NCBI GenBank assembly: GCA_021324595.1
Contig: JAJPIV010000077.1
Location: 1 to 36,821 of the forward strand
Length of the DNA: 36,821 nt
Origin: Actinomycetota bacterium
GTDB taxonomy: Bacteria; Actinomycetota; Actinomycetes; Streptosporangiales; Streptosporangiaceae
Direction of reading: 5' to 3'
In this document: one piece after another, positions 1-13,700 of the stretch
Layout of the letters: the number at the start of each line of letters is the position of its first letter
How positions within the stretch are numbered: position 1 is the stretch's first letter
Translations under genes and position numbers: made by a program
Notes under the pieces: model-generated
Told to the model about the DNA's origin: nothing
Databases searched by the model: none
What the model saw: the letters and a program-made list of their open reading frames with translations, nothing else

Positions 1-11
1 CCCGGGACGGG

Positions 12-1694
12 TCACAGCTGGTGCGGCTGGCACACCGCGCCGCGGTCCGCGCCGGTGACCAGCGCCGCGTACTTGGCCAGCGCGCCGCTGGCATAGCGCG
101 GCGCCGGGCGCTTCCAGCCGGCCCGCCGGCGCTCCAGCTCGGCCTCGTCGACGAGCAGCTCGAGCCGGCGCCCCGGCACGTCGACCAGGATCTTGTCGCC
201 GTCTGCCGCGAGCGCGACCGGGCCGCCGTCGAACGCCTCGGGCGCGACGTGCGCGATGCACGCGCCGAACGTGGCCCCGGAGAACCGCCCGTCGGTGACC
301 AGCACCACGTCCTTGCTGATCCCGCTGCCCTTGAGCGCGGCGGTGACCGCGAGCATCTCCCGCATGCCCGGGCCCCCCTTCGGCCCCTCGTACCGGATCA
401 CCAGCACGTCGCCCGCGGCGACCTTGCCCTGGGTGATCGCCGCGAAGCAGTCCTCCTCGCGGTCGAACACCCGGGCCGTCCCCTCGAACCGCAGCGTCTC
501 GATGCCGGGCACCTTGACGACCGCGCCGTTCGGGGCGAGGCTGCCGCGCAGCACGGCCAGGCCGCCCTCGCGGCCGAACGGGTCGGAGGCCGGCCGCACC
601 ACCGTGCCGTCCGGCTCCGGGGCGCCCGCGACGTTCTCCGCGAGGGTCCGGCCGTTCACCGTCATCGCGTCGCCGTCGAGCAGGCCGGCGCCGAGCAGCT
701 CGCGGAGCACCACCGGCAGCCCGCCGACCTGGTCGAGCTCGCTCATCACGAACCGGCCGGCCGGGCGCATCGAGGCGATGTGGGGGGTGCGGCGGCTGAT
801 CGCGTCGAAGTCATCCAGGGTCAGCTCGACCCCGGCCTCCGCAGCGATCGCGAGCAGGTGCAGGACGGCGTTCGTCGAGCCCGCCGTCGCCATCACGACC
901 GTGGCGGCGTTGAGGAACGCGGCCCGCGTCAGGATGTCGCGCGGCCGGCGCCCCGCGGCCAGGGCGGCGACCGCCGCCTCGCCCGTCGCCCGGGCGAGCG
1001 CGGCCCGCTCGGCGGTCACGGCGGGCGGGCTGGCGGAGCCCGGCAGCGCCATGCCGAGGGTCTCGGCGCAGGCCGCCATGGTGTTCGCGGTGTACATGCC
1101 GGCGCACGAGCCGGCGCCCGGGCAGGCCGCCCGCTCGATGGCGAGCAGGTCGGCGTCGCTCATCTCCCCGGCCGCCTGGGCGCCGACCGCCTCGAACACG
1201 TCCTGGATCGTGAGCGTCCGCCCGAGCGCGCGGCCGGGCAGGATCGTGCCGCCGTACAGGAACGCGGCGGGCACGTTCAGGCGCGCGCAGGCCATGAGCA
1301 TGCCGGGCAGCGACTTGTCGCACCCGGCGATGGCGACCAGCGCGTCGAACCGCTCCGCGTGCACCATCAGCTCGACGGAGTCCGCGATGACCTCGCGGCT
1401 GACCAGGGACGCCTTCATCCCCTCGTGGCCCATCGCGATGCCGTCGGAGACCGCGATCGTGCCGAATTCCAGCGGGACCGCCCCGGCCTGCCGCACGCCC
1501 TCCTTCGCCGCGACCGCGAGCGAGTTCAGGTGCAGGTTGCACGGGGTCACCTCGTTCCACGAGGACGCGACGGCGACCTGGGGCAGGCCCAGGTCCTCCT
1601 CGCTCAGGCCGACCGCCCGCAGCATCGCGCGCTGCGGGGCGCGGGCCGGTCCGGTGGTCAGCGGGCCGCTGCGCGGCCGCGGCAGTGTGCTCAT
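12..1694 (-). CDS. ilvD: Dihydroxy-acid dehydratase
   Basis: Dehydrates 2,3-dihydroxy-isovalerate and 2,3-dihydroxy-3-methylvalerate to the 2-keto acids that precede valine/leucine and isoleucine; cytosolic Fe-S enzyme. The 560-residue product has the normal length for the IlvD/Edd family. It shows the three expected cluster cysteines: C52 in [11 protein letters not shown]125 in AGCDKSLPG, and C197 in [11 protein letters not shown]. The C-terminal half carries [12 protein letters not shown], also typical of the family. ATG start at 1694; an AAGG stretch lies about 13 bases upstream, so the ribosome binding site is only fair. It is the last gene seen in the minus-strand ilv block, 61 bp after cimA, and the window ends just past its stop, so any distal gene is out of view. 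Confidence 0.97.
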
Positions 1695-1755
1695 CGCGGG
1701 TTCACACCTTCCAGGAGAACGGATTCTTCGTGCTGATCGCGGGCCGCCGGGCCGG

Positions 1756-3402
1756 TCACGTCGCGGCGGGGACGAGCGCCCGCGCGCCCGCCCGGAGCAG
1801 CCCGTAGCTGATCCCGTCGGCGAGCGCCTCCCAGGACGCGGTGACGATGTCGTCGGAGACGCCCACGGTGGTCCACTCGCCGGCGCTGTCGGCCGAGGTG
1901 AGCATGACGCGGGTGACCGCGCTGGTCGCGGCCCGGCCGTCGAGGATGCGGACCTTGTAGTCCACCAGGCGGATGGAGGCCAGCTCGGGGTACAGGTCCT
2001 CCAGGGCCCGGCGCAGCGCCTGGTCGAGCGCGTGGACCGGGCCGACTCCCTCGCCGACCGCGACGACCCGCTGGTCCCGCAGGAGCAGCCGGACGATCGC
2101 CTCGCTGCGGTCGGTGGGCCCCGAGGGGCCCTCGGACCGCTCGATCACGACCCGGTAGCCCTCCAGCTCGAACCAGGTCGGGCTGGGATCCGGCCCAGTC
2201 CCGGCCGGCCGTCGCCGGGCGGCCACGCGCCGGACCAGGAGCTCGAACGAGGCGTCCGCGGCCTCGAACGCGTAGCCGCGGTGCTCGGCGGCCTTGACCT
2301 CGTCCAGTACCTCGCTGGCCAGGGCCGGATCGAGCTCGATGCCGAGCTCGGCCGCCCGGGCCAGCACGTTGCTGCGCCCGGCGAGCTCGCTGACCAGGAC
2401 GGCCGCCTGGTTCCCCACCGCGGCGGGGTCGACATGGGAGTAGGCGTCGGGGCGGCGGGCGATGGCCGAGGCGTGCAGCCCGGCCTTGGTGGCGAACGCT
2501 GACGAGCCGACGTACGGCTGGCGGGCCTCGAACGGCAGGTTCGCCACCTCCGCGACCAGCTTGGCGACCGACGACAGCTCGGCGAGCCTGCCCGGCGGGA
2601 GCAGCTCGTGCCCCCGCTTGAGCTCCAGGCCCGCGATCACGGCGAACAGGTCCGCGTTGCCGCAGCGCTCCCCGTAGCCGTTCGCCGCGCCCTGCACGTG
2701 CCTGACCCCCTCACCGACCGCGACTAGCGAGTTCGCGACCGCGCAGGCCGAGTCGTTGTGGCAGTGCACGCCGATCCGCAGCTGCCCGAACCGGGCCGTG
2801 ACGTCCCGGACGACCCGGACGATGTCGTCGGGGAGCGTGCCGCCGTTGGTGTCGCACAGCGCCAGCGTGTCCGCCCCGGCCTCGGCGGCCGCGGCGAGCA
2901 CGGCGAGCGCGTAGCCGGGGTCGGCGGCGTAGCCGTCGAAGAAGTGCTCGGCGTCGAAGACGACCCGCCGTCCCTCGCGGGCGAAGAACCGCACCGAGTC
3001 GGCGACCATCGCCAGGTTCTCCTCCCGGGTGGTGCGCAGCGCCTCGTCGACGTGGAGCGTCCATGCCTTGCCGACCAGCGTCACGACCGGCGTGCCGGCG
3101 GCGAGCAGCACGGCCAGGTCCGGGTCGCCGTCGGCCGACCGGCCGGGACGGCGGGTCGCGCCGAACGCCGCGAGCGCCGCGTGCCGCCACGGCAGCTCCC
3201 CGGCCCGGGCGAAGAACTCCTTGTCCTTCGGGTTGGAGCCGGGCCAGCCCCCCTCGACCACGTCCACGCCGAGCGCGTCGAGTGCTGCGGCGATCCGGAG
3301 CTTGTCCTCGACGGTCAGGTCGAGGCCGACCTGCTGGGCGCCGTCGCGGAGCGTGGTGTCGTAGATCTCGACCCGGGCAGGCCCCGGCTCAGCGCCGCTC
3401 AC
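1756..3402 (-). CDS. cimA: Citramalate synthase
   Basis: Condenses pyruvate and acetyl-CoA to (R)-citramalate, the first step of the threonine-independent isoleucine route. The 548-residue protein has the HMGL-like TIM barrel with [14 protein letters not shown] near residues 14-27 and the metal motif [13 protein letters not shown] in the middle. An [12 protein letters not shown] motif follows, and the C-terminal half matches the LeuA-type allosteric dimer domain. The early motif and overall length fit CimA rather than 2-isopropylmalate synthase or homocitrate synthase. Its GTG start overlaps the leuB stop as GTGA, so translation is probably coupled. Placement with leuB and the ilv genes supports the isoleucine role; feedback by isoleucine is known for the family but is not shown here. 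Confidence 0.93.
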
Positions 3403-4451
3403 GCCCTATCACCTGCCTGGCCGAGCCTGGTGCTCAGGGCGTCGGCCCACCCGCGGGTGGACGTGGCGCCGCCGGAGGCGAGCACCGCGTCGACGGCGGA
3501 CTCCAGCTCCCCGGCGGCCGCCCGCTCGCCGAGGTGGTCGAGCATGAGGGCGGCGGACAGGACGGCGCCGGCCGGGTTGGCCGTGCCGGTGCCGGCGATG
3601 TCCGGGGCCGAGCCGTGGACCGGCTCGAACATCGACGGGCCGGTCCGGGCCGGGTTGAGGTTCCCGCTCGCGGCCAGGCCGAGGCCGCCGGTCAGGGCCG
3701 CGGCCAGGTCGGAGAGGATGTCGCCGAACAGGTTGTCGGTGACGATCACGTCGAACCTGCCCGGGTCGGCGACCAGGTACAGGCACGCGGCGTCGACGTG
3801 GGCGTAGTCGAGCACGATGCCCTGCTCGGCGGCGACCTCCTCGGCGACCCGCTGCCAGAGCCGGCCGGCGTGGGTGAGCACGTTGGTCTTGTGGACCAGG
3901 GTCATCCGGCCGCCGCGGCGGGCGGCGAGCCCCGCGGCGTACCGGACGCAGCGCTCGACCCCGGCGCGCGTGTTCAGCGACTCCTCGGTCGCCGCCTCGA
4001 ACGGGGTGCCCGCGTGGACGGTGCCGCCCGCCCCTGCGTAGAGCCCCTCGGTGTTCTCCCGCACCACCACCACGTCCAGGCCCGTCCCCTGGCGCGGGCC
4101 GGCGACGCCGGGGCGGAGCCTGGCCGGGCGCAGGTTCACGTAGAGGTCGAGCTCGGATCGCAGCCGCAGCAGCAGGCCCCGCTCCAGCACCCCGGGAGGG
4201 ACCGACGGGCTGCCGACCGCTCCCAGCAGGATCGCGTCGGCCTTGCGCAGGGCGGCCAGGGCGTCGTCGGGCAGCAGCTCGCCGGTGCGCAGGTACCGCT
4301 GCGCGCCCAGGTCGGCATCGCGCCAGTCGATGCGGAAGCCGTGCCGGGCGCCGGCCTGGTCGACGAGGGCGCGGGCGACCGCGGTGACCTCGGGGCCGAT
4401 GCCGTCGCCCGGCAGGTGCGCGACGACGTGGGTTCGTACGCCGGCCTCCAT
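3399..4451 (-). CDS. leuB: 3-isopropylmalate dehydrogenase
   Basis: Oxidises and decarboxylates 3-isopropylmalate to 2-ketoisocaproate with NAD+ in leucine synthesis. In organisms with cimA it can also act on the methylmalate analogue in the citramalate route, which fits the adjacency to cimA (inference). The 350-residue product has the isocitrate/isopropylmalate dehydrogenase signatures: [13 protein letters not shown], the catalytic-region LVHKTNVL, the metal-binding [14 protein letters not shown], and the NAD-binding [19 protein letters not shown] start at 4451 with GGAG seven bases upstream, inside the end of ilvC; only one base separates it from the ilvC stop. It overlaps cimA by four bases. 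Confidence 0.96.
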
Positions 4452-4452
4452 C

Positions 4453-5523
4453 TCAGGCTCCGTCCTCGCCGTGGCCGGCCGCGTCCTGGTCCCGGCCGCC
4501 GGCCGGCGCGTCCTGGCCCTCGCGGTCGGTGGGCGCGTCCAGCCAGCTCATCATCTGGCGCAGCGGCCGCCCGGTCCGCTCGATCAGGCTGTTCGCCGCG
4601 GCGGCGCGCAGCCGCTCGAAGTTCGGCCGGCCGGCGTCGTCCTCGGCGATCCACTCGCGGGCGAACTCGCCGGAGCGGATGTCGTCGAGGAGTTGCGCCA
4701 TGGCCTGCCGGGTCGGCTCGCCGATCACCCTCGGGCCGCGGGTCAGGTCGCCGTACTCGGCGGTGTCGCTCACCGAGTAGCGCATCCAGCCCATGCCCCC
4801 CTCGTACATCAGGTCCACGATCAGCTTGAGCTCGTGCAGGCACTCGAAGTAGGCGACCTCCGGCTGGTAGCCGGCGTTCACGAGGGTCTCGAAGCCCGCG
4901 TTGACCAGCGCGGTCACCCCGCCGCAGAGCACCGCCTGCTCGCCGAACAGGTCGCTCTCGGTTTCCTCCTGGAAGGTCGTGACCAGCGCCCCCGCCTTGG
5001 TGCCGCCGATCCCCTTGGCGTAGGAGCGGGCGAGGTCCCACGCCTTGCCGGTGGCGTCCTGGGCGACGGCGACCAGCACCGGGGTGCCCTGGCCTGCCTC
5101 GAACTGCCGCCGCACCAGGTGCCCCGGCGCCTTCGGCGCGACCATCGCGACATCCACGTCACCGGGCGGGGTGACGTAGCCGAAGTGGATGTTGAACCCG
5201 TGCGCGAAGAACAGCGCGTCGCCCGGCTCGAGGTTCGGCGCGATCGCCTCCGCGTAGAGCCGTCGCTGCCCCGTGTCCGGGGTGAGCACCATGATCACGT
5301 CGGCCCAGCCGCACACCTCCGCGGGCGTGCCGACGCTCAGCCCGGCCTCGAGCGCCTTCGCGCGGGACCGTGACCCCTCGGGCAGCCCCACCCGGACGTC
5401 GCACCCGGAGTCCCGCAGGTTCAGCGCGTGCGCGTGGCCCTGCGACCCGTACCCCAGGACCGCGATCTTCCTGGACTGCGCCAGCGTGAGGTCGGCGTCC
5501 TCGTCGTAATACACCGTCGCCAT
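4453..5523 (-). CDS. ilvC: Ketol-acid reductoisomerase (NADP+)
   Basis: Isomerises and reduces acetolactate or acetohydroxybutyrate to the dihydroxy acids, using Mg2+ and NADPH. The 356-residue protein is a short class I enzyme. The N-terminal Rossmann motif is [19 protein letters not shown], with a basic/serine-rich loop ([10 protein letters not shown]) that fits [22 protein letters not shown] and the acidic metal-binding region around [14 protein letters not shown] are the usual active-site segments. The last roughly 25 residues are a Gly/Asp/Gln-rich tail beyond the conserved core. ATG start with a GGAAGG site upstream; ilvN ends only six bases before. It sits in the ilvBNC order common to actinobacteria. 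Confidence 0.97.
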
Positions 5524-5529
5524 GGAAAG

Positions 5530-6084
5530 CTACCTTCCGAGTAGAACTTGTTCTTCCTGCCTGGCGGCGCCGGGAGCGCGCGCCGGGTCGTCGTCGGTGA
5601 TCGTCCCGGCGCCGCGGCCGATCGCGATCAGCCCGGTCCGCACCAGCTCGCAGGTCCCGTGCGGCTCGAGCGCCGCCAGCAGCGCGTCGAGCCGGCCCGG
5701 GCTGCACACCGCCTCGAGCACGATCGTCCGCGGGTCCAGGTCCACCACGGTGGCGCGGAACGCCGCGGCGGTGTCCAGCAGCCGCGCCCGCAGGGCCGGG
5801 TGCACGTGGACCTTGATCAGGGCGAGCTCGCGCTCCACTGCGGCGTCCGCCTCGAGCTCCACCACCTTGAGCACCCGGACCAGCTTCTCCAGCTGCTTGT
5901 GGACCTGGTCGACGGGCGTGGAGGCGCCGTCCACCACGATGGTCATCCGGCTCACCCGCTCGTCGGCGGTCGGGCCGACGGAGAGGGAGGTGATGTTGAA
6001 CGCCCGGCGGGAGAACAGCCCGGCCACGTGCGCGAGCACGCCTGGCTTGTTCTCCACCAGCACCGACAGGGTGTGGGTGCTCAC
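5530..6084 (-). CDS. ilvN: Acetolactate synthase small (regulatory) subunit
   Basis: Regulatory subunit that activates IlvB and confers valine feedback inhibition in this family. The 184-residue product starts with [20 protein letters not shown], the hallmark ACT-domain entry of IlvN/IlvH, followed by [17 protein letters not shown] second ALS small-subunit C-terminal domain runs from about residue 80 to the end ([36 protein letters not shown]). I chose the GTG at 6084 because it overlaps the ilvB stop as GTGA, a translational coupling seen repeatedly in this operon. The reading frame stays open upstream to 6801, but that stretch lies antiframe to ilvB and is not coding. Confidence 0.96.
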
Positions 6085-7835
6085 GGCACGATCACCTCCT
6101 TGCGCGCGGCCGCCTCCTGCTCCGCGGCGGTGAACTCGGGCCCGAGCACGATGTCGTCGTTCGCCGCACCGGCCGGGACCATCGGGAAGACGCCCTCGGC
6201 GTCGTGGGTGCGGAAGTCGACGACGACCGGAACGTCGGTGCTGGCCAGCGCCTTCTCCAGCACCGTGTCCACGTCGGCCGGGCTCTCGCAGCGCAGCCCG
6301 GCGCATCCGTAGGCCTCGGCGAGCTTGACGTAGTCGGGGATGGCCGTGCCGAGGTGAACCTCGGAGTAGCGCTCCTCGTAGAACAGCTCCTGCCACTGCC
6401 TGACCATGCCGAGGAACCCGTCGTTGAAGATCATCACCTTGATCGGCAGCCCCTCGATCGCGCAGGTGGCGAGCTCCTGAGCGGTCATCTGGAAGCACCC
6501 GTCGCCGTCGATCGCCACCACCAGCTCGCCGGGCCGGCCGATCTGGGCGCCCATGGCGGCGGGGACGGCGAAGCCCATCGTGCCCAGGCCACCCGAGTTG
6601 ATCCAGCTGCGCGGCCTGGTGAACGTGTAGTGCTGGGCGGCGTGCATCTGGTGCTGGCCGACCCCCGCGACGATGATCGCCTCGCCCCCGGTCATCGCCG
6701 AGAGCCGCTCGACGACGTGCTGCGGCTTCAGCGGCCCGTCGGGCCGCTGGGTGTAGCGCAGCGGGTAGCTGCGCCGCCAGCCGGCGGTGGTGGCCAGCCA
6801 CTCGCCCGTGCCGGGCGGCCCGGAGCGGCCGGCCAGCTCCCGCACGGCGATGGCCAGGTCGGGCAGGACGGTCCGCAGGTTGCCGATGATCGCGACGTCG
6901 GGGACCCGGTTCTTGCCGATCTCCGCCGGGTCGATGTCGGCGTGGACGACCTTGGCCTTCGGGGCGAACGCCGCGAGCTTGCCGGTCACCCGGTCGTCGA
7001 ACCGGGCGCCGAGCGCGACGATCAGGTCGGCCTCCTGCAGCGCGGCGACCGCCGCGTAGGTGCCGTGCATGCCCGGCATGCCGAGGGCGAGAGGGTGGGA
7101 GTCGGGGAAGGCGCCGCGCGCCATGAGCGTGGTGACCACCGGTGCCTGCGCAGCCTCGGCCAGCTCGCGCAGCGCCTCGTGCGCGTCGGCCTTGACGACC
7201 CCGCCGCCGACATACAGGACGGGGCGGCGGGCCGCGTGCAGCATCCGCGCGGCCCGGGCGATCAGCGCGGGGTCGGGCGGGCCGGGCACCCGGTAGCCGG
7301 GCAGGTCGAGCTCGGGCGGCCAGCTCCAGGTGGTCGTGGCCTGCAGGACGTCCTTGGGCAGGTCCACCAGGACCGGGCCGGGGCGGCCGGTGCTCGCGAC
7401 GTGGAACGCCTCGGCGATCGCCGCCGGGATCCGCGCCGGATCGGTGACCAGCTCGTTGTGCTTGGTCACCGGGCTGGTGATCCCGGTGATGTCGGACTCC
7501 TGGAACGCGTCGGTGCCGATCATGCGGGTCGGCACCTGGCCGGTGATCGCGACGACGGGGACCGAGTCCATGTAGGCGTCGGCGAGGGCGGTCACCAGGT
7601 TCGTCGCCCCGGGCCCGGACGTGGCCATGCAGACCCCGACCCGGCCGGTGGCCCAGGCATAGCCCTCGGCGGCGTGCCCCGCTCCCTGCTCGTGCCTGAC
7701 CAGCACGTGCCGCAGGGACGAGGAGCGCAGCGGATCGTAGGCGGGCAGGATGGCCCCGCCCGGCAGCCCGAAGACGATGTCGACGCCCTGGCGTTCAAGG
7801 CTGCGGACGAGCGCCTGGGCTCCGGTCACATGCAC
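6081..7835 (-). CDS. ilvB: Acetolactate synthase large (catalytic) subunit
   Basis: Thiamine-diphosphate enzyme that makes 2-acetolactate or 2-acetohydroxybutyrate from pyruvate and a second keto acid. The protein contains [26 protein letters not shown], the catalytic-glutamate segment [15 protein letters not shown], the SGPGATN loop, and the C-terminal TPP motif with [14 protein letters not shown] and [13 protein letters not shown]. Total length of 584-591 residues is normal. Two starts are possible. GTG at 7856 has no visible ribosome binding site. GTG at 7835 has AAGGAG six bases upstream, so I prefer it. Expression should be controlled by the leader peptide and terminator at 7934-8034. 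The stop overlaps the ilvN start by four bases. Confidence 0.96.
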
Positions 7836-7933
7836 GAGATGCTCCTTCTTCGTCACGACGATGCGCCGCCAGGAGGCGTCCCGGCCGCGGCGGCGGGCGC
7901 CGCCGCGCGGGCCCGCCTGGTGGCCCGGCTAAC

Positions 7934-7963
7934 AAAAAACCTCCTGGCCGCCGGCCGAGGAGG
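7934..7963 (-). terminator. ilvB attenuator: intrinsic terminator
   Basis: Read on the minus strand, CCTCCT, then GGCC, a three-base loop, GGCC and AGGAGG form a strong GC stem (7940-7963 with one bulge), followed by six T residues (7939-7934). This is a textbook Rho-independent terminator lying between a branched-chain-rich leader peptide and ilvB, so it most likely ends transcription when charged Ile/Val/Leu tRNAs are plentiful. It is one of very few T-tailed terminators in the window. Confidence 0.88.
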
Positions 7964-7964
7964 G

Positions 7965-7996
7965 GTAGCGCGAGCCCGTCGCCGGGCTCGCGCTAC
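7965..7996 (-). promoter_or_regulatory. ilvB leader hairpin overlapping the leader-peptide stop codon
   Basis: A perfect 13-bp stem (7965-7977 with 7984-7996) closes a six-base loop. Its 5' arm in the transcript contains the UAG stop of the leader peptide, so a ribosome finishing the peptide would keep it open and a ribosome stalled on the Ile/Val/Leu codons would not. It lies directly upstream of the terminator stem. I infer that it is the pause or alternative stem of the attenuator; I did not find a clear long antiterminator pairing by eye. Confidence 0.7.
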
Positions 7997-8034
7997 ATGA
8001 TGAGGAGTACTCGGAACTGGATGATCTTGCTCAT
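7993..8034 (-). CDS. ilvB leader peptide (Ile/Val/Leu-rich)
   Basis: A 13-codon ORF encoding MSKIIQFRVLLIM then TAG. Six of its 13 residues are Ile, Val or Leu, including Ile-Ile and Val-Leu-Leu-Ile runs, which is the expected sensor composition for attenuation of ilvB. The ATG at 8034 has GGAG seven bases upstream. Its stop lies inside the following hairpin, and a T-tailed terminator comes next. Leader peptides with terminators have been predicted upstream of ilvB in several actinobacteria, so this is the same arrangement rather than a chance ORF. Confidence 0.85.
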   Translation of the reverse strand: MSKIIQFRVLLIM

Positions 8035-8134
8035 CGCGATCTCCGTTGCGGGTCGGCCTTCGGGATGATGTGGCACGGTGAGGATCGTGTGCCGTGGGAG
8101 GCGACGCTGCCCGCCGCCCCCACCATACGGCACG

Positions 8135-8749
8135 TCAGGCCATGGCGTGCTCGCCGGGGCGGACCGATGGCAGCCAGGATGGCCTGCGCCGCTCGAAGCT
8201 GGCGATCGCGTCCGCGTGGCGGAGCGTGATGCCGATGTCGTCGAGGCCCTCGAGCAGGCGCCAGCGCGCGTAGTCGGGGAGGGCGAACGGGGCGCTCAGC
8301 CCGGCCGCCGGGACCGTGATCGTCCGCTCCGCCACGTCGACCACGACGCGCGCGCCCGGATCGGCGGCCAGCGCGGCGGTCAGGGCGGACACGGCGTCCT
8401 CGCCGGCCTGCGCGGTCACCAGGCCCGCGCCGATGCTGTTGTTGCGGAAGATGTCCGCGAAGCTCGGCGCGATCACCGCCTCGAACCCGAAGTCCTGGAG
8501 CGCCCAGACCGCGTGCTCGCGCGACGAGCCGCAGCCGAAGTTCGCCCCGGCGACCAGGATCCTCGCCCCGCTGGCACCGGGCGCGTTGAGCGGAAAGCCC
8601 GGGTCGGCGCGCCAGGCCTCGAACAGGCCCGCGCCGAAGCCGGTCCGCTCCACTCGCTTGAGCCACGACGCCGGGATGATCTGGTCGGTGTCGATGTCGC
8701 GGCGGTCCACCACGACCGCGCGGCCCTCGACCCGCCGCACTGCGCGCAT
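8135..8749 (-). CDS. leuD: 3-isopropylmalate dehydratase small subunit
   Basis: Small swivelling-domain subunit of isopropylmalate isomerase, which converts 2- to 3-isopropylmalate together with LeuC. The 204-residue product has the LeuD signatures DIDTDQIIPASWLKRVERTGFG, GANFGCGSSREHAVWAL, and APSFADIFRNNSIGAGL. The final segment RLLEGLDDIGITLRHADAIASFE is also typical. ATG at 8749 is chosen because AAGGAGAG lies eight bases upstream; the frame stays open further upstream through leuC but without leuD homology. It follows leuC after 59 bp, and about 100 bp separate it from the ilvB leader peptide. Confidence 0.96.
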   Translation of the reverse strand: MRAVRRVEGRAVVVDRRDIDTDQIIPASWLKRVERTGFGAGLFEAWRADPGFPLNAPGASGARILVAGANFGCGSSREHAVWALQDFGFEAVIAPSFADIFRNNSIGAGLVTAQAGEDAVSALTAALAADPGARVVVDVAERTITVPAAGLSAPFALPDYARWRLLEGLDDIGITLRHADAIASFERRRPSWLPSVRPGEHAMA

Positions 8750-8808
8750 CTGGCGCTCTCCTTTCCTCGCGGCCCGGCGCCGCCGGGCCTTCGGCTTCCC
8801 CGGGGCGG

Positions 8809-10209
8809 CTACAGGTCCGACGGCGCCGCGAACCGGCCGGCCACCGCGGTCGCTGCGGCGACCGCGGGGGACACCAGGTGGGTGCGGCCGCCCGGCCCCT
8901 GCCTGCCCTCGAAGTTCCGGTTGCTGGTCGACGCGCTCCGCTCCCGCGGGGCGAGGATGTCGCCGTTCATGCCCAGGCACATCGAGCAGCCGGCCGAGCG
9001 CCACTCGAAGCCGGCGGCGGTGAACACCGCGTCGAGGCCCTCGGCCTCGGCCTGCGCCTTCACCCGGGCCGAGCCGGGCACGGCGATCGCGCGCACGCCC
9101 GGGCTGACCTTGCGGCCCCGCAGCACGCCAGCCGCGGCCCGCAGGTCCTCCAGCCGGCCGTTCGTGCACGAGCCGATGAACACGGCGTCCACCGCGATGT
9201 CGCGGATCGCCGTGCCGGGCGCGAGGCCCATGTACTCCAGCGCGCGCCGGGCCGCCTGGCGTTCCTGCGGGGTCTGGAAGGAGTCCGGGTCGGGCACGGC
9301 CCCGTCGATGCCCGCCGACTGCGCCGGGGTGGTGCCCCAGGTCACCGTGGGGGTGATCGCCGAGGCGTCGATGCGCACCTCCCGGTCGAACGCCGCGCCG
9401 TCGTCGGTGGCCAGCGAGCGCCAGTCGTCGAGCGCCCGCTCCCAGTCCGCGCCCTTCGGCGCGTACCGCCGGCCCTCCAGGTAGGCGAAGGTCACGTCGT
9501 CCGGCGCGATCATCCCGGCCCGGGCGCCCGCCTCGATCGACATGTTGCAGACGGTCATCCGGCCCGCCATGTCGAGCCCGCGGATCGCCGCGCCGCGGTA
9601 CTCGATCACGGTCCCCGTGCCGCCGCCGGTGCCGATCCGGGCGATGATCCCCAGGATGAGGTCCTTGGCGCTGACCCCGGGGGCGAGCTCGCCGTCCACC
9701 GTCACCGCCATCGCCTTCGGCTTGGCCTGGCGCAGCGTCTGGGTGGCGAGCACGTGCTCGACCTCGGTGGTCCCGATGCCGAACGCGAGCGCGCCGAACG
9801 CCCCGTGGGTGGAGGTGTGGCTGTCGCCGCACACCACCGTCATGCCGGGCTGGGTGAGCCCGAGCTGCGGGCCGATGACGTGGACGACGCCCTGGTCGGC
9901 GCTGCCGAGCGGGAAGAGCGTGATCTGGTGCGCCTCGCAGTTCTTGCGCAGCCGGGCGATCTGCTCGGCGGCGAGCGGGTCGGTGATCGGGCCGAGCGGG
10001 TTGACCGTCGGCACGTCGTGGTCCATCGTCGCCACCGTCAGGTCGGGCCGCCGGACCGCGCGGCCGGCGAGCTCCAGGCCCTCGAACGCCTGCGTCGAGG
10101 TGACCTCGTGGATCAGGTGCAGGTCGATGTAGAGCAACGGCGGCTCGCCGTCGGGGCTGGCCACCAGGTGGCGCTCCCAGACCTTGTCGAACAGGCGGTG
10201 GGCGCTCAC
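8809..10209 (-). CDS. leuC: 3-isopropylmalate dehydratase large subunit
   Basis: Fe-S catalytic subunit of isopropylmalate isomerase in leucine synthesis. The 466-residue protein belongs to the aconitase family. It begins with the characteristic [12 protein letters not shown], has [30 protein letters not shown] in the middle, and supplies three [4Fe-4S] ligands: C348 in [13 protein letters not shown], and C408 and C411 in [18 protein letters not shown] lies near the end. The GTG start at 10209 overlaps the stop of a 45-codon ORF as GTGA, and GGGA lies seven bases before it. Upstream lie a Leu-rich leader peptide and a pseudoknot-like element, so control by leucine supply is likely. Confidence 0.96.
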
Positions 10210-10343
10210 GCGCGGTCCCTGGCGGCGCCCGCATCGCCTCCGTTGTCCCGGCGGTCAAGCGCGACCTGGACGGCGGCCAGCGCCATCATGCCCGTTTCGC
10301 TGGAGTCAGGCTGGTGGGCCTCGGATCCGGTCTCGGCCTTCAT
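10206..10343 (-). CDS. Small 45-residue ORF coupled to leuC
   Basis: I do not recognise this product. The ORF starts with ATG at 10343, has GGGAG about five bases upstream, and ends in TGA that overlaps the leuC GTG start by four bases. The peptide begins [15 protein letters not shown] and has a short hydrophobic stretch, [12 protein letters not shown], followed by a charged tail, [16 protein letters not shown]. No signal peptide or known motif is visible. The good ribosome binding site and the exact GTGA junction argue for real translation. It may be a coupling cistron that feeds ribosomes to leuC, or a small accessory protein. It stands about 240 bases downstream of the leu leader element. 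Confidence 0.55.
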
Positions 10344-10581
10344 GACGTCTCCCTGTCGCTTCTGCTGCTGGGTGATCTGCCAGGCGTTCCAGCGTGGGGC
10401 CGGGCCGCCGCCGCGCCGCCCGCCCTGCCGCGTCCGCCGGGGGACGGCGCGGCCGGGGGCGGATGCCCTCCGTGATCGCGGAGCCCAGGGTCCGGGACGT
10501 CGCGTGCCGGGCCGTGCGCGGATCGATCGCGCGGATCGGGGGTGAGATCTGGGATCGGCTCGCGGGACCTAGGGGCGATGC
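10344..10581 (-). other. Long untranslated stretch between leu leader element and leuC cistrons
   Basis: About 240 bases with no convincing gene. A 69-codon plus-strand frame crosses it but has Arg/Ala/Gly-biased composition and no ribosome binding site. On the minus strand no start codon with a good site appears until the 45-codon ORF. The stretch is GC-rich and probably part of the leuC transcript leader. Confidence 0.5.
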
Positions 10582-10639
10582 GGCCAGCGCCTCAACTCCG
10601 TAGCGGGTTGCTGGCCTGCCTGATCAGGTCCCGCTACGG
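10582..10639 (-). promoter_or_regulatory. Pseudoknot-like leucine leader element (LEU-element type)
   Basis: Two perfect stems cross each other. Stem A pairs 10598-10607 with 10630-10639 (10 bp). Stem B pairs 10582-10588 with 10610-10616 (7 bp), and one arm of B lies in the loop of A, which makes a pseudoknot. The loop also holds the palindrome CCTGATCAGG (10619-10628). The 5' arm of stem A is made of codons 9-13 of the Leu-rich leader peptide, so ribosome position would control folding. A conserved pseudoknot called the LEU element has been predicted upstream of leuA in many actinobacteria; this one is followed by leuCD. No T-tailed terminator is seen. Confidence 0.7.
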
Positions 10640-10668
10640 CAGCTAAGAATGAGTACGAGGTGCCGCAT
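10624..10668 (-). CDS. leu leader peptide
   Basis: A 14-codon ORF encoding MRHLVLILSCRSGT then TGA. Residues 4-8 (LVLIL) give a compact branched-chain run with three Leu codons. The last codons form the 5' arm of stem A of the following pseudoknot. There is no ribosome binding site, but a TACAGT -10-like hexamer ends ten bases before the ATG, so the transcript would begin only a few bases upstream and translation may be almost leaderless. This fits a leucine-sensing leader for the downstream leuC-leuD genes. Confidence 0.72.
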   Translation of the reverse strand: MRHLVLILSCRSGT

Positions 10669-10678
10669 GTCGCTGACC

Positions 10679-10684
10679 ACTGTA
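10679..10684 (-). promoter_or_regulatory. Possible -10 box for the leuCD transcript
   Basis: TACAGT on the minus strand fits the actinobacterial TANNNT -10 pattern and would start transcription about four bases before the leader-peptide ATG. No good -35 is visible in the GC-rich DNA upstream, so this is a weak call. Confidence 0.35.
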
Positions 10685-10751
10685 CCCCGCCCGCGCGGGA
10701 GCGCGCACCCGGGGCCGGGATATCGCAGTGGCGCCGTGCGGCACGCCGGGC

Positions 10752-13700
10752 TCACAGCAGCCCGAGCCGGCTGCCGTGGGCGATCGCCTGCCGCCGGGTG
10801 GCCACCCCGAGCTTGCGGTAGACCGCGCGCAGGTGCGTCTTGATCGTGTTCACCGACAGGAACAGCGCCTCGGCGATCTCCTGGTTGGTCATGTGCGAGG
10901 GCAGGAACCGCAGCACCGCCAGCTCGCTCGGGGTCAGCCGGGCCGCGTCCCGGGCCGGCGGCATGGCCGGTCGCCATGCCGAGCCGTCTAGCCGGCGCAC
11001 GATGGCGGCGGCGAACGAGGCGCCAGGACCGTCCGGGCGGATGAGCGCGGTCAGCGCCGACCGGGCCGCGGCGCCGTGGTCCAGGAAGGGCCGCAGCAGC
11101 CCGGCCGGCTCGGCGAGGGCCAGGGCCGCGGCCAGGTGGCCGGCCGCGGGCCCGGGCTCACCCAGCCGGCGGTGCGCGATGGCGGCGGTGATCAGTGCCC
11201 CGACGTGCTCGCTCAGGGTGAGGCGCCCCGGCGGCGGGTCGAGCCAGGGGCCGAGGATGGCGAGCGCGCTGCGGCCGTCACCGGCGGACAGCAGCACCCG
11301 GGCACGGGCCAGGCGCAGGCCGGGATGGCCCGAGGCGCCGCGGCGGGGACCGGCACCGCCCGGCCCGGCCAGCCCGGGCCCGCCGGCTGCCCCGGCTGCC
11401 CCGGCTGCCCGGGCGGGCCCGGCTGGCATGAGTGGTCCGGCTACGGCTCGCTCGGCTGCCTCGATCGCGGCCATCGCGCTCGCGGTGTCGCCGTCCTGGA
11501 GCGCGACGTCGGCGTCGAGCACTGCCAGCTCCGGGCCGAGGGGGATCGCGCGGCCGGCTGCGGCCGCCGGGCAGCCGTCCGGTGCGTGCCCGGCGGTCAC
11601 GGCCGGGCCCGCCGCCCCGGCCAGGCCCGCCGCCCCGGCCAGGCCCGCCGCCCCGGCCAGGCCCTGCCCGGCGTCGCGGCGGAGCCTGGCGAGCAGGGCC
11701 CGTGCGCTGGCACGGTCCCCGCAGCACAGGGCCAGCCTCGCCCGGGCAGCGGTGACCAGCCAGCCCGCCACCTGCTCCTCGGGCCCGGCCTGCGCGAACC
11801 GGGGGCCGTGGCCGGGCGGTGAGCCCGGGCCGGCCCCGGCGCCGGCCATCGGCTCGGCGTGCCCCCCGGCCGTGCGGGGCGCGCCAGCCGCGCTCGCGGC
11901 ACAGCGGTCGAGTGCCCGGGCCGCCCCGGCCAGATCGTCCCTGGCCAGGCAGGAATGAGCCGTGGCCAGGTCGGCGAGCAGCCCGGGCAGCGCGTCGGCG
12001 TCCTGGATCCGCGGGCCGCCGGCCCCGCCGGCATCGTGCGCAGCGTCCGGCCCGGTCGTGATGGCGCCGCGGATCCGGTGCGAGATCGCGCCGGCCGGCC
12101 AGGAGCCGCGCGCGCCGCGCTCGGGTGCCATGCCGCCCGGATCGGATAGCTGGCCGTGCAGCGAGCCGGCGAGAAAGGGCTGGCCGTGCAGCGAGCCGGC
12201 GAGAAGCTGCCACGCGGCGACCCGCGCGAGCAGCCCCTCGCTGCCCGCGTGCCCGAGCTGCCCGCGTGCCCGGCTGAACGCGGCGAGCGCGTCTGAGGGC
12301 CGCCCGCGGACCAGCGCGGCGACGCCGAGCGCGGACCACAGCAGGCCGGTTGCCCGCCGCCAGGCCGTTCGGCCCGGGTCCGGGCCCTGGCCAGCCGCCG
12401 GGCGGGCTGGCCGCGCCTCGCCGTCGCCCGGCCCGGCGCCGCCGCCACCCAGGCCGGCCTGGCCGGCACCGGCCGCCTCGCCGGCTGCGGAACGGGCCGC
12501 CGTGATCCAGCGGGCCGGCTCGGCGCAGGCCGCGGCATGCAGCACCCGCAGGGCGAGCAGCCACGGCGCCATCTCCGGGCGCCGGCCCGGCCCGCGGCGG
12601 GCAGCGGCCCGCTCGGCGTCGTCCAGGTGCGACCCGGCGGCGATCCAGTTCCCCGCGCGCAGCGCTGACGCCGCGAGCGCGCACGCGACCGCCGGGTCGT
12701 CGCGCCCGTCCTCGGGGAACGCCGCGAGCGCCGCCTCGGTGCGGGCGCCCGGGGCGGGCAGCAGCAGCACCGGGCCAGCCAGGCCGAGCATCTCGGCGGC
12801 CAGGTCCCAGTCACCCGCCGAGGATGCGGTCCGCACGGCGTCCGCGGCCATGCCGTGGGCCGCCAGCCACCGCGCGGCCCGGGCGGCGAGAGCGGCTGCC
12901 TCCGCCGGCCGCTCCCGCCGCAGCCGCCAGTGCAGCAGGTCCCGCAGCAGCGGGTGAACGCGGTACCAGGCCGCTGCGGCAGGCGGCGAGGTCACGTCGT
13001 CGCCGGTGATCACGGTGACCATCGCGTTCTCCCGGCTGAGCTGGTCGAAGAGCGCCGCGCCCCCGTCCCCGCCCGTGATCGCATCGGCCAGGTCACCGCA
13101 GGTCACTTCGGTCACGCTGGTGCGCTCCAGGAACAGCCGCGTGCCTGCGGGGAGGGCGGCGAGCACCTCGTCGCTCAGGTAGTCGGCGGCCGGCGGCTGG
13201 TCGCCGCGGAGCCGCCAGGCCGCCGGAGCGTGGCCCGGGCCGGCCGCCAGCGCCGCCAGGCGCAGCCCGGTCATCCAGCCCAGCGTGCGGGCGAGCAGCG
13301 CGTCCAGCTCGCCAGGGGGCGGGCGCATGCCGAGCATCGTGAAGTAGCCGTCCGCCTCCTGCGCGGTGCAGGCCAGCTCGCCGGGCCCGATCTCGGCGAG
13401 GTCGCCGTCCACCCGCAGCCGAGCGACCGGCAGGCCCGCGGCGTGCCGCCCGGACAGCAGCCACCGCAGGCCACGCGGCCCGCGCCGGACCAGGTGCTCC
13501 AGCTCGGCCACGGCGGCGCTGCCCGTGAGCTGCTCCAGCCCGTCGACGATCAGCGTGACGGGGACGGCTCGCTCCCCCGCGCGCCTGCCGGGGGACGGCG
13601 CGGCCGGGCCGGCGCCCGGGTCCGCCCGGGTCCCGCCGCGCGCGGGAGCCATCCTCGCGCCGGGCCGGGCGAAGATGCCGTCGGGGCCGGGCAGGCTCGC

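Follow-up and report, generated by a model that had tools for sequence, protein, structure and literature searches.

A LEU-related pseudoknot leader with valine, leucine and isoleucine codons upstream of leuC in a Streptosporangiaceae genome

The LEU element, a pseudoknot with a short leader peptide predicted upstream of leuA in actinobacteria, was presented by Seliverstov et al. in 2005 (PMC1262725). In the available portions of that paper, the leucine codons of the leader also pair with the Shine-Dalgarno sequence of leuA as a base stem, and the only carriers named are leuA and one transposase. Since then, the question has been whether these elements sense leucine via the leader peptide or bind a protein. 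The mutational work of Craster (1999), as told in the same portions of PMC1262725, found no effect of codon mutations in the ilvB leader of Streptomyces coelicolor, and an effect of those in the leuA leader that does not fit classic attenuation. For Streptomyces lividans, the accessible part of a later study describes the leuA leader peptide MRFGLLLLSCRGEGL as leaderless and without a typical terminator (PMC8079986); an identical peptide also precedes leuA in genomes found by the model used here.

Other systems close to the one reported here are the classical amino acid attenuators, whose leader codons match the operon product, and the ilvB leader attenuators (the ilvB-II motif, PMC10272879, and ilvB1 of Mycobacterium tuberculosis, PMC13236596), where a leader rich in branched-chain amino acid codons precedes branched-chain amino acid genes. 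The leuC element described below shares these features with both. However, the ilvB leaders have a terminator hairpin with a U-run, and a pseudoknot is not described in the accessible parts of those two papers, whereas the leuC element has a pseudoknot and, contrary to classical attenuators, no terminator was found before leuC. Among the titles and abstract openings listed from the open part of PubMed Central, none described an actinobacterial leader of the LEU type in front of leuB, ilvE or leuC.

The window, i.e., the whole stretch of DNA analysed, comprises 36,821 nucleotides of a Streptosporangiaceae genome (GCA_021324595.1, a draft of 168 contigs), and the features located below lie on its minus strand. 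The genes concerned are leuC (8809..10209; TIGR00170, 722.5 bits against a cut-off of 560.25) and leuD (8135..8749; TIGR00171, 173.9 bits against a cut-off of 116.25), the start of the latter being placed at 8749 by reading the sequence, within a frame spanning 8135-8806. A citramalate synthase gene (cimA), ilvBNC, leuB and ilvD follow leuCD on the same strand. Upstream of leuC, the leader peptide ORF (10624..10668) encodes MRHLVLILSCRSGT in 14 codons before its stop, with LVLIL at codons 4-8 and, within it, Val-Leu-Ile-Leu at codons 5-8. From the last base of codon 10 to the end of codon 13, this ORF also provides the 5' arm of stem 1 (10630..10639, CCGUAGCGGG), which pairs with a 3' arm at 10598..10607 (CCCGCUACGG) in a perfect stem of 10 bp (10639-10630 with 10607-10598). 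The arms of stem 2, GGCCAGC (10610..10616) on the 5' side and GCUGGCC (10582..10588) on the 3' side, form a perfect stem of 7 bp (10616-10610 with 10588-10582) that crosses stem 1, resulting in a pseudoknot. The peptide, the 10-bp stem entered by its last codons and the crossing 7-bp stem had all been listed in the initial annotation of this DNA, and they are confirmed here on the minus strand. Its description of the leader as leucine-rich is incomplete: the run is a mixed one, Leu-Val-Leu-Ile-Leu. The spacer behind the element, first given as about 240 bases, measures 238 nt (10344..10581), its first 78 nt being C-rich and possibly a Rho-loading stretch. It ends at an ORF for a microprotein of 45 aa (10206..10343), whose stop overlaps the GTG start of leuC, suggesting coupled translation.

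On the other side of the element, a box resembling a -10 sequence, TACAGT (10679..10684), lies 10 nt 5' of the leader ATG. A TANNNT box 4-13 nt before the leader start (observed at 5-11) is found in 109 of 117 related leaders, compared with 17 of 1499 random ATG or GTG codons. The closeness of this box to the start predicts a nearly leaderless leader mRNA, with transcription in the window implied to begin near 10672. A transcription start downstream of 10582 had been named in the initial annotation as a second observation that would refute the element, and the box points instead to one just before the leader. The box is preceded, at a distance of 67 nt, by the end of a gene of the LuxR family that resembles MalT, although with scores under the curated cut-offs.

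The relationship with leuA elements was addressed with a covariance model built from 41 leuA leaders, from which the genus was excluded. This kind of search, proposed as a check in the initial annotation, recovered the window element with 43.8 bits (E 5.8e-10, on a rough calibration), the second-best match in the window reaching 12.8 bits. At its gathering thresholds, Rfam matched only four tRNAs in the whole window and nothing at the leuC element, and a bare pseudoknot scan of regions upstream of leuC and leuA was too noisy for use. In all four other genomes of the genus that were available, a leader of the same kind with both stems is present, and in all four the element precedes leuC (identified by family search in three and by tblastn in one). 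Near-identical elements were also found on contigs with names such as Streptosporangiaceae bacterium or Actinomycetes bacterium.

An absence of compensatory changes in the two stems had been named beforehand as the observation that would speak against the element; both stems do show such changes, in counts that, like those of the tail swaps below, are uncorrected for relatedness. For stem 1, 46 aligned sequences (42 leuA and four genus leuC) have one pair as C-G in 42 and U-A in four, another as G-C in 41 and A-U in five, and a further one as G-C in 34, A-U in six and G-U in five, with one broken. The U-A change probably represents one event, since its four cases all come from the genus leuC leaders. 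Of 122 elements parsed for stem 2, 108 remained once four duplicates had been merged and 10 in which no 5' arm could be recognised had been left out. All seven pairs form in 99 of the 108, six in six and five in three, the window element included. Among the 105 with at least six pairs, two-sided changes are seen at pairs 2 (G-C 90, A-U 12), 3 (C-G 84, U-A 6), 5 (G-C 71, A-U 12) and 6 (G-C 65, A-U 7), the remainder being G-U or, rarely, mismatches. Because the 3' arm was picked as the best complement, a control with shuffled tails was needed, and these reach seven of seven pairs in 9.3% of cases. An exact Watson-Crick complement to stem 2 is found in 34 of 108 own tails against 476 of 7658 tails taken from elements with a different 5' arm, and in a structure swap covering 122 elements the own tail does better than other tails do on average in 87, and does not in 35. 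Judged by this comparative evidence, the leuC element is a genuine, conserved regulatory element.

Set against the LEU element, as far as the available text of PMC1262725 describes it, the leuC element has the same pseudoknot layout and a short leader of aliphatic codons, and the leuA-only model supports its homology to leuA elements, so that the relationship suspected in the initial annotation holds. The likeness ends there: the codons are Val-Leu-Ile-Leu instead of leucine codons, valine and isoleucine being present in the LVLIL run in five of five genus genomes; the genes downstream are the microprotein and leuC, not leuA; and the base stem, which the alternative hairpin of LEU elements would also need, is not seen at the window element. 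By these features, it is related to the LEU element but divergent from it, and not a standard member.

Elements of this family are widespread. Model R1, whose training set contains four leuC-leader sequences of the genus, matches once or more in 195 of 200 genomes of the family. Sixty genomes with at least two matches were searched again, and 60 regions were taken from them, mostly second or third elements. A leader peptide of the LEU type precedes leuA in 53 of 54 upstream regions not cut by a contig end, the sole miss being L078, a divergent second leuA; L076 and L098 (contig end) and L096 (a repeat of L073) were left out of this count. The source genome itself has two elements, one before leuA, with the leader MMRRLLLRGRGEAR, and the one before leuC. 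The leuC context, singled out as unusual from the start, is indeed unusual, yet it is one of several, together with leuB and ilvE.

The leader codons were compared with the gene that follows. The codon table comprised 120 element rows, the majority belonging to the family and a small number to named contigs elsewhere; 15 rows had no assignable gene, leaving 105. The assignments to ilvE were made by tblastn, and for L131, L133, L135, L137, L195 and L208 also by NCBIfam. Before leuA (second copies included), the run consists of leucine alone in 49 of 57 leaders, with valine in five and isoleucine in three. Isoleucine is in the run in 23 of 30 leuB, 9 of 9 ilvE, 5 of 5 leuC and 4 of 4 cimA leaders, or 41 of these 48, and two of the seven leuB rows without it are mis-picked ORFs. 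Since many of the leuB, ilvE and leuC leaders share ancestry, these counts are not independent; per distinct peptide, leuA leaders have leucine alone in 40 of 46 and isoleucine in two, and isoleucine is present in 19 of 26 for leuB, 2 of 2 for ilvE, 3 of 3 for leuC and 4 of 4 for cimA. The VLIL run is found in five of five genus genomes and in all nine ilvE leaders. The trend goes in the same direction across families. A model of the mixed type matched 28 of 296 genomes drawn from the phylum (the own genome included, with strict filters), where none of 22 leuA leaders has isoleucine in the run (LLL, LLLL or VLLL), all three leuB leaders do (ALIL, LVVI, LVIL), one leuC leader does not (VVLLL), and two loci have no assigned gene.

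The leader codons thus appear to track the product of the downstream gene. In organisms that use citramalate, the enzymes LeuB, LeuCD and IlvE work for both leucine and isoleucine. In the window, LeuCD and LeuB should serve isoleucine via the clustered citramalate synthase, so that a run of valine, leucine and isoleucine codons fits the pathway. On the question of whether citramalate is the sole route to isoleucine, a search with ilvA_1Cterm gave no match above the cut-off and three weaker ones in the source genome, and a match above the cut-off in one of five genus genomes. Codon changes that follow the downstream gene represent a natural experiment favouring peptide sensing. They suggest that the switch reads amino acids through its leader peptide, and the codon variants found here are ready-made constructs for a direct test of sensing.

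We therefore consider it probable that the leuC element is a branched-chain-amino-acid version of the LEU element with a ribosome-stalling sensor. According to this model, transcription would begin a few bases before the nearly leaderless peptide gene, and poor charging of valine, leucine or isoleucine tRNA would slow the ribosome at the Val-Leu-Ile-Leu codons. The slowed ribosome would cover the 5' arm of stem 1 and keep the pseudoknot open, whereas a ribosome reaching the stop and leaving would allow the pseudoknot to form; the state of the pseudoknot would then determine how strongly the microprotein, leuC and leuD are expressed as a unit. Sequence comparison shows the element, its two stems, their conservation, the promoter-like box and the match between codons and genes; that the element senses by ribosome stalling is what we infer.

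The output is the least certain part of this model. Our guess, made with low confidence, is that within the C-rich spacer the mRNA is either terminated by Rho or degraded, and that the leader ribosome and the pseudoknot block or allow this. In its best 78 nt, the excess of C over G in the window spacer lies at the 95th percentile of random window segments, and C exceeds G in 38 of 38 microprotein-class spacers of at least 60 nt. However, a C-rich spacer is not special to the mixed class, because the mean C skew is no lower in leuA spacers (0.17) than in microprotein-class spacers (0.13). In keeping with the initial annotation, no terminator was seen by eye in the leuC spacer, and a scan of positions 1-11000 for intrinsic terminators found none, which is weak evidence, since the same scan missed an evident one at about 7964-7934. 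With nested folding that leaves out the pseudoknot, masking the leader at 11 loci caused no consistent change in the predicted accessibility of the microprotein Shine-Dalgarno sequence, even though single loci shifted by up to 0.15 either way.

The first gene behind the element deserves attention in its own right. The small ORF between element and leuC had been noted initially as if incidental. Its presence is confirmed, but an incidental ORF was rejected, given a conserved motif across loci linked to leuB, ilvE or leuC. A small ORF with a DRRDNGG-like motif (..ALDRRDNGG..) is found in 20 of 20 chosen spacers between an element and leuB, ilvE or leuC, starting about 30-240 nt behind the element, and the motif is present in 50 of the 58 loci outside leuA and cimA (mixed class plus unassigned). 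The eight loci without it are L138 (a leuA), L155, L189, L194, L200, L209, L210 and L211; ORFs without a Pfam or NCBIfam match at L141, L144, L177, L169, L200, L198 and L189 may be wrong-frame picks. An alignment of 31 microproteins shows seven positions without variation (Q, D, R, R, D, G, G). The copy in the window has no Pfam or NCBIfam match, and no paper on the motif DRRDNGG was found in the open part of PubMed Central, where subscription journals are mostly missing. Searched against 296 genomes of the class (E at most 0.01), a profile of the microprotein has hits in 98, one each in 97 genomes and two in one, the weakest, near 0.004, being possibly false. We regard this microprotein as a new candidate player in the branched-chain amino acid synthesis of actinomycetes, and a feedback or partner role would be our guess.

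Its regular place behind the element raises the alternative that the microprotein alone is the real target, with leuB, ilvE or leuC as mere passengers behind it. Besides the counts above, this is favoured by two loci, L146 and L165, where element and microprotein are found without leuB behind. Still, we find it unlikely, because in 25 of the best 30 loci of the class the microprotein is followed by leuB in the same orientation, because 21 of 29 loci with a recovered motif have no leader that passes the filter, and because its stop overlaps the leuC start in the window. The rest of those best 30 loci comprise one before leuC, in the window, three without an assigned gene and one where the motif was not recovered. 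At L146 and L165, leuB, ilvE and cimA are located kilobases from the element and on the opposite strand.

Beyond the single locus, and rather more tentatively than for the stalling model, we propose that the modular pseudoknot leader may be an interchangeable sensor placed before leuA, leuB, ilvE, leuC and cimA, with codons rewritten for each product, and that its mixed form controls the DRRDNGG microprotein as first gene, which may itself join branched-chain amino acid control; we would put the chances of this wider proposal a little short of even.

A second alternative is that the locus has an ordinary LEU element, where the leader codons pair with the Shine-Dalgarno sequence of the next gene and a stalled ribosome sets it free. 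The covariance model does place both in the same family, and the base stem is apparent at leuA: the duplex has a mean of -18.3 kcal/mol, against -14.6 kcal/mol with shuffled Shine-Dalgarno sequences, and is lower in 33 of 42 cases (p 8e-6), and the leuA element of the source genome has GGCUGCUCCUU against AAGGAGCAGCC. However, even the leuA leaders show no preference for their own Shine-Dalgarno sequence over that of other loci (p 0.28). In the microprotein class, the result is borderline (-12.5 against -11.5 shuffled, lower in 29 of 46, p 0.06) with 46 of the 50 rows, after mis-picked rows had been removed and the right leaders used; the uncorrected set, in which four or five rows carried a leader belonging to an adjacent cimA element and a few starts were mis-picked, had a lower duplex energy in 27 of 50 (p 0.40). 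In the window, the pairing of -10.1 is weaker than that of shuffled sequences (-10.9), a base stem like that of leuA was rejected for leuC on this ground, and the target start codon is about 240 nt away. An ordinary LEU element is thus improbable here, and the output does not appear to work through the Shine-Dalgarno base stem of leuA elements.

Of similarly low probability is the idea proposed in 2005 that the pseudoknot is the site of a regulatory protein, an ML1624-type helicase, which would make the leader peptide incidental. It would account for the strong conservation of the stem sequences and, according to the accessible text of PMC1262725, for published codon mutations having had little effect. 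The seven of 30 leuB leaders scored without isoleucine in the run and the VVLLL leader before leuC in another family also speak against codon sensing. Yet the leaders differ in their codons according to the gene behind them but retain the pseudoknot, and an incidental peptide would not change its codons with the gene, which disfavours protein binding; that the codons track the product favours tRNA sensing over it.

Chance hairpins next to a chance peptide deserve hardly any credence: even though perfect 10+7 pseudoknots are not rare in the GC-rich DNA of the window (eight of 1050 tiles of 140 nt on both strands, two of the eight being the leuC element itself), this one is kept in five of five genus genomes and is found by an independent model, and that conservation refutes chance and makes the element more than its geometry.

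The ribosome-stalling element would not be the only control point of the cluster. Between leuD and ilvB there is a classical ilvB attenuator (7930-8034), with the leader MSKIIQFRVLLIM and two strong hairpins, the second followed by U6, and an MFE z-score of -4.2. As this separate attenuator comes after leuD, there are probably two points of control for leuCD and ilvBNC. A similar hairpin with a U-run is seen at the genus locus L038.

Regarding protein regulators, the accessible part of a study on S. coelicolor reports that NdgR, of the IclR type, adjoins leuCD and binds branched-chain amino acid genes (PMC4340878). In other genera of the family, all of the best 30 leuC loci have a gene of this type no more than 1.5 kb from leuC (by tblastn, with the IclR identity named by Pfam for one locus), and none was found at the genus leuC loci or in the window.

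Several elements occupy other positions. At L231:1501-3064, from another family, a VVLLL leader lies about 70 nt before leuC, apparently as a separate case of a LEU-type element at this gene. Leaders with LLII or LVII are found at L156, L162, L171 and L198 (before cimA) and in the second element of L148. At L148, L156, L162 and L171, the leader is followed by a hairpin and then a T-run, which makes an isoleucine attenuator on a related scaffold likely. L209 and L211 have LEU-type elements whose leaders read VLIL, at distances of about 380 and 470 nt from a gene of the MATE transporter family that lies downstream, possibly an amino acid exporter; the contig of one of them is named Micromonosporaceae. 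Finally, at L256:1501-2040, a LEU-type element with the leader MSRMLVVRRRSGV precedes an ORF of 131 aa whose match is confined to the allosteric domain of LeuA (PF08502, 27.9 bits).
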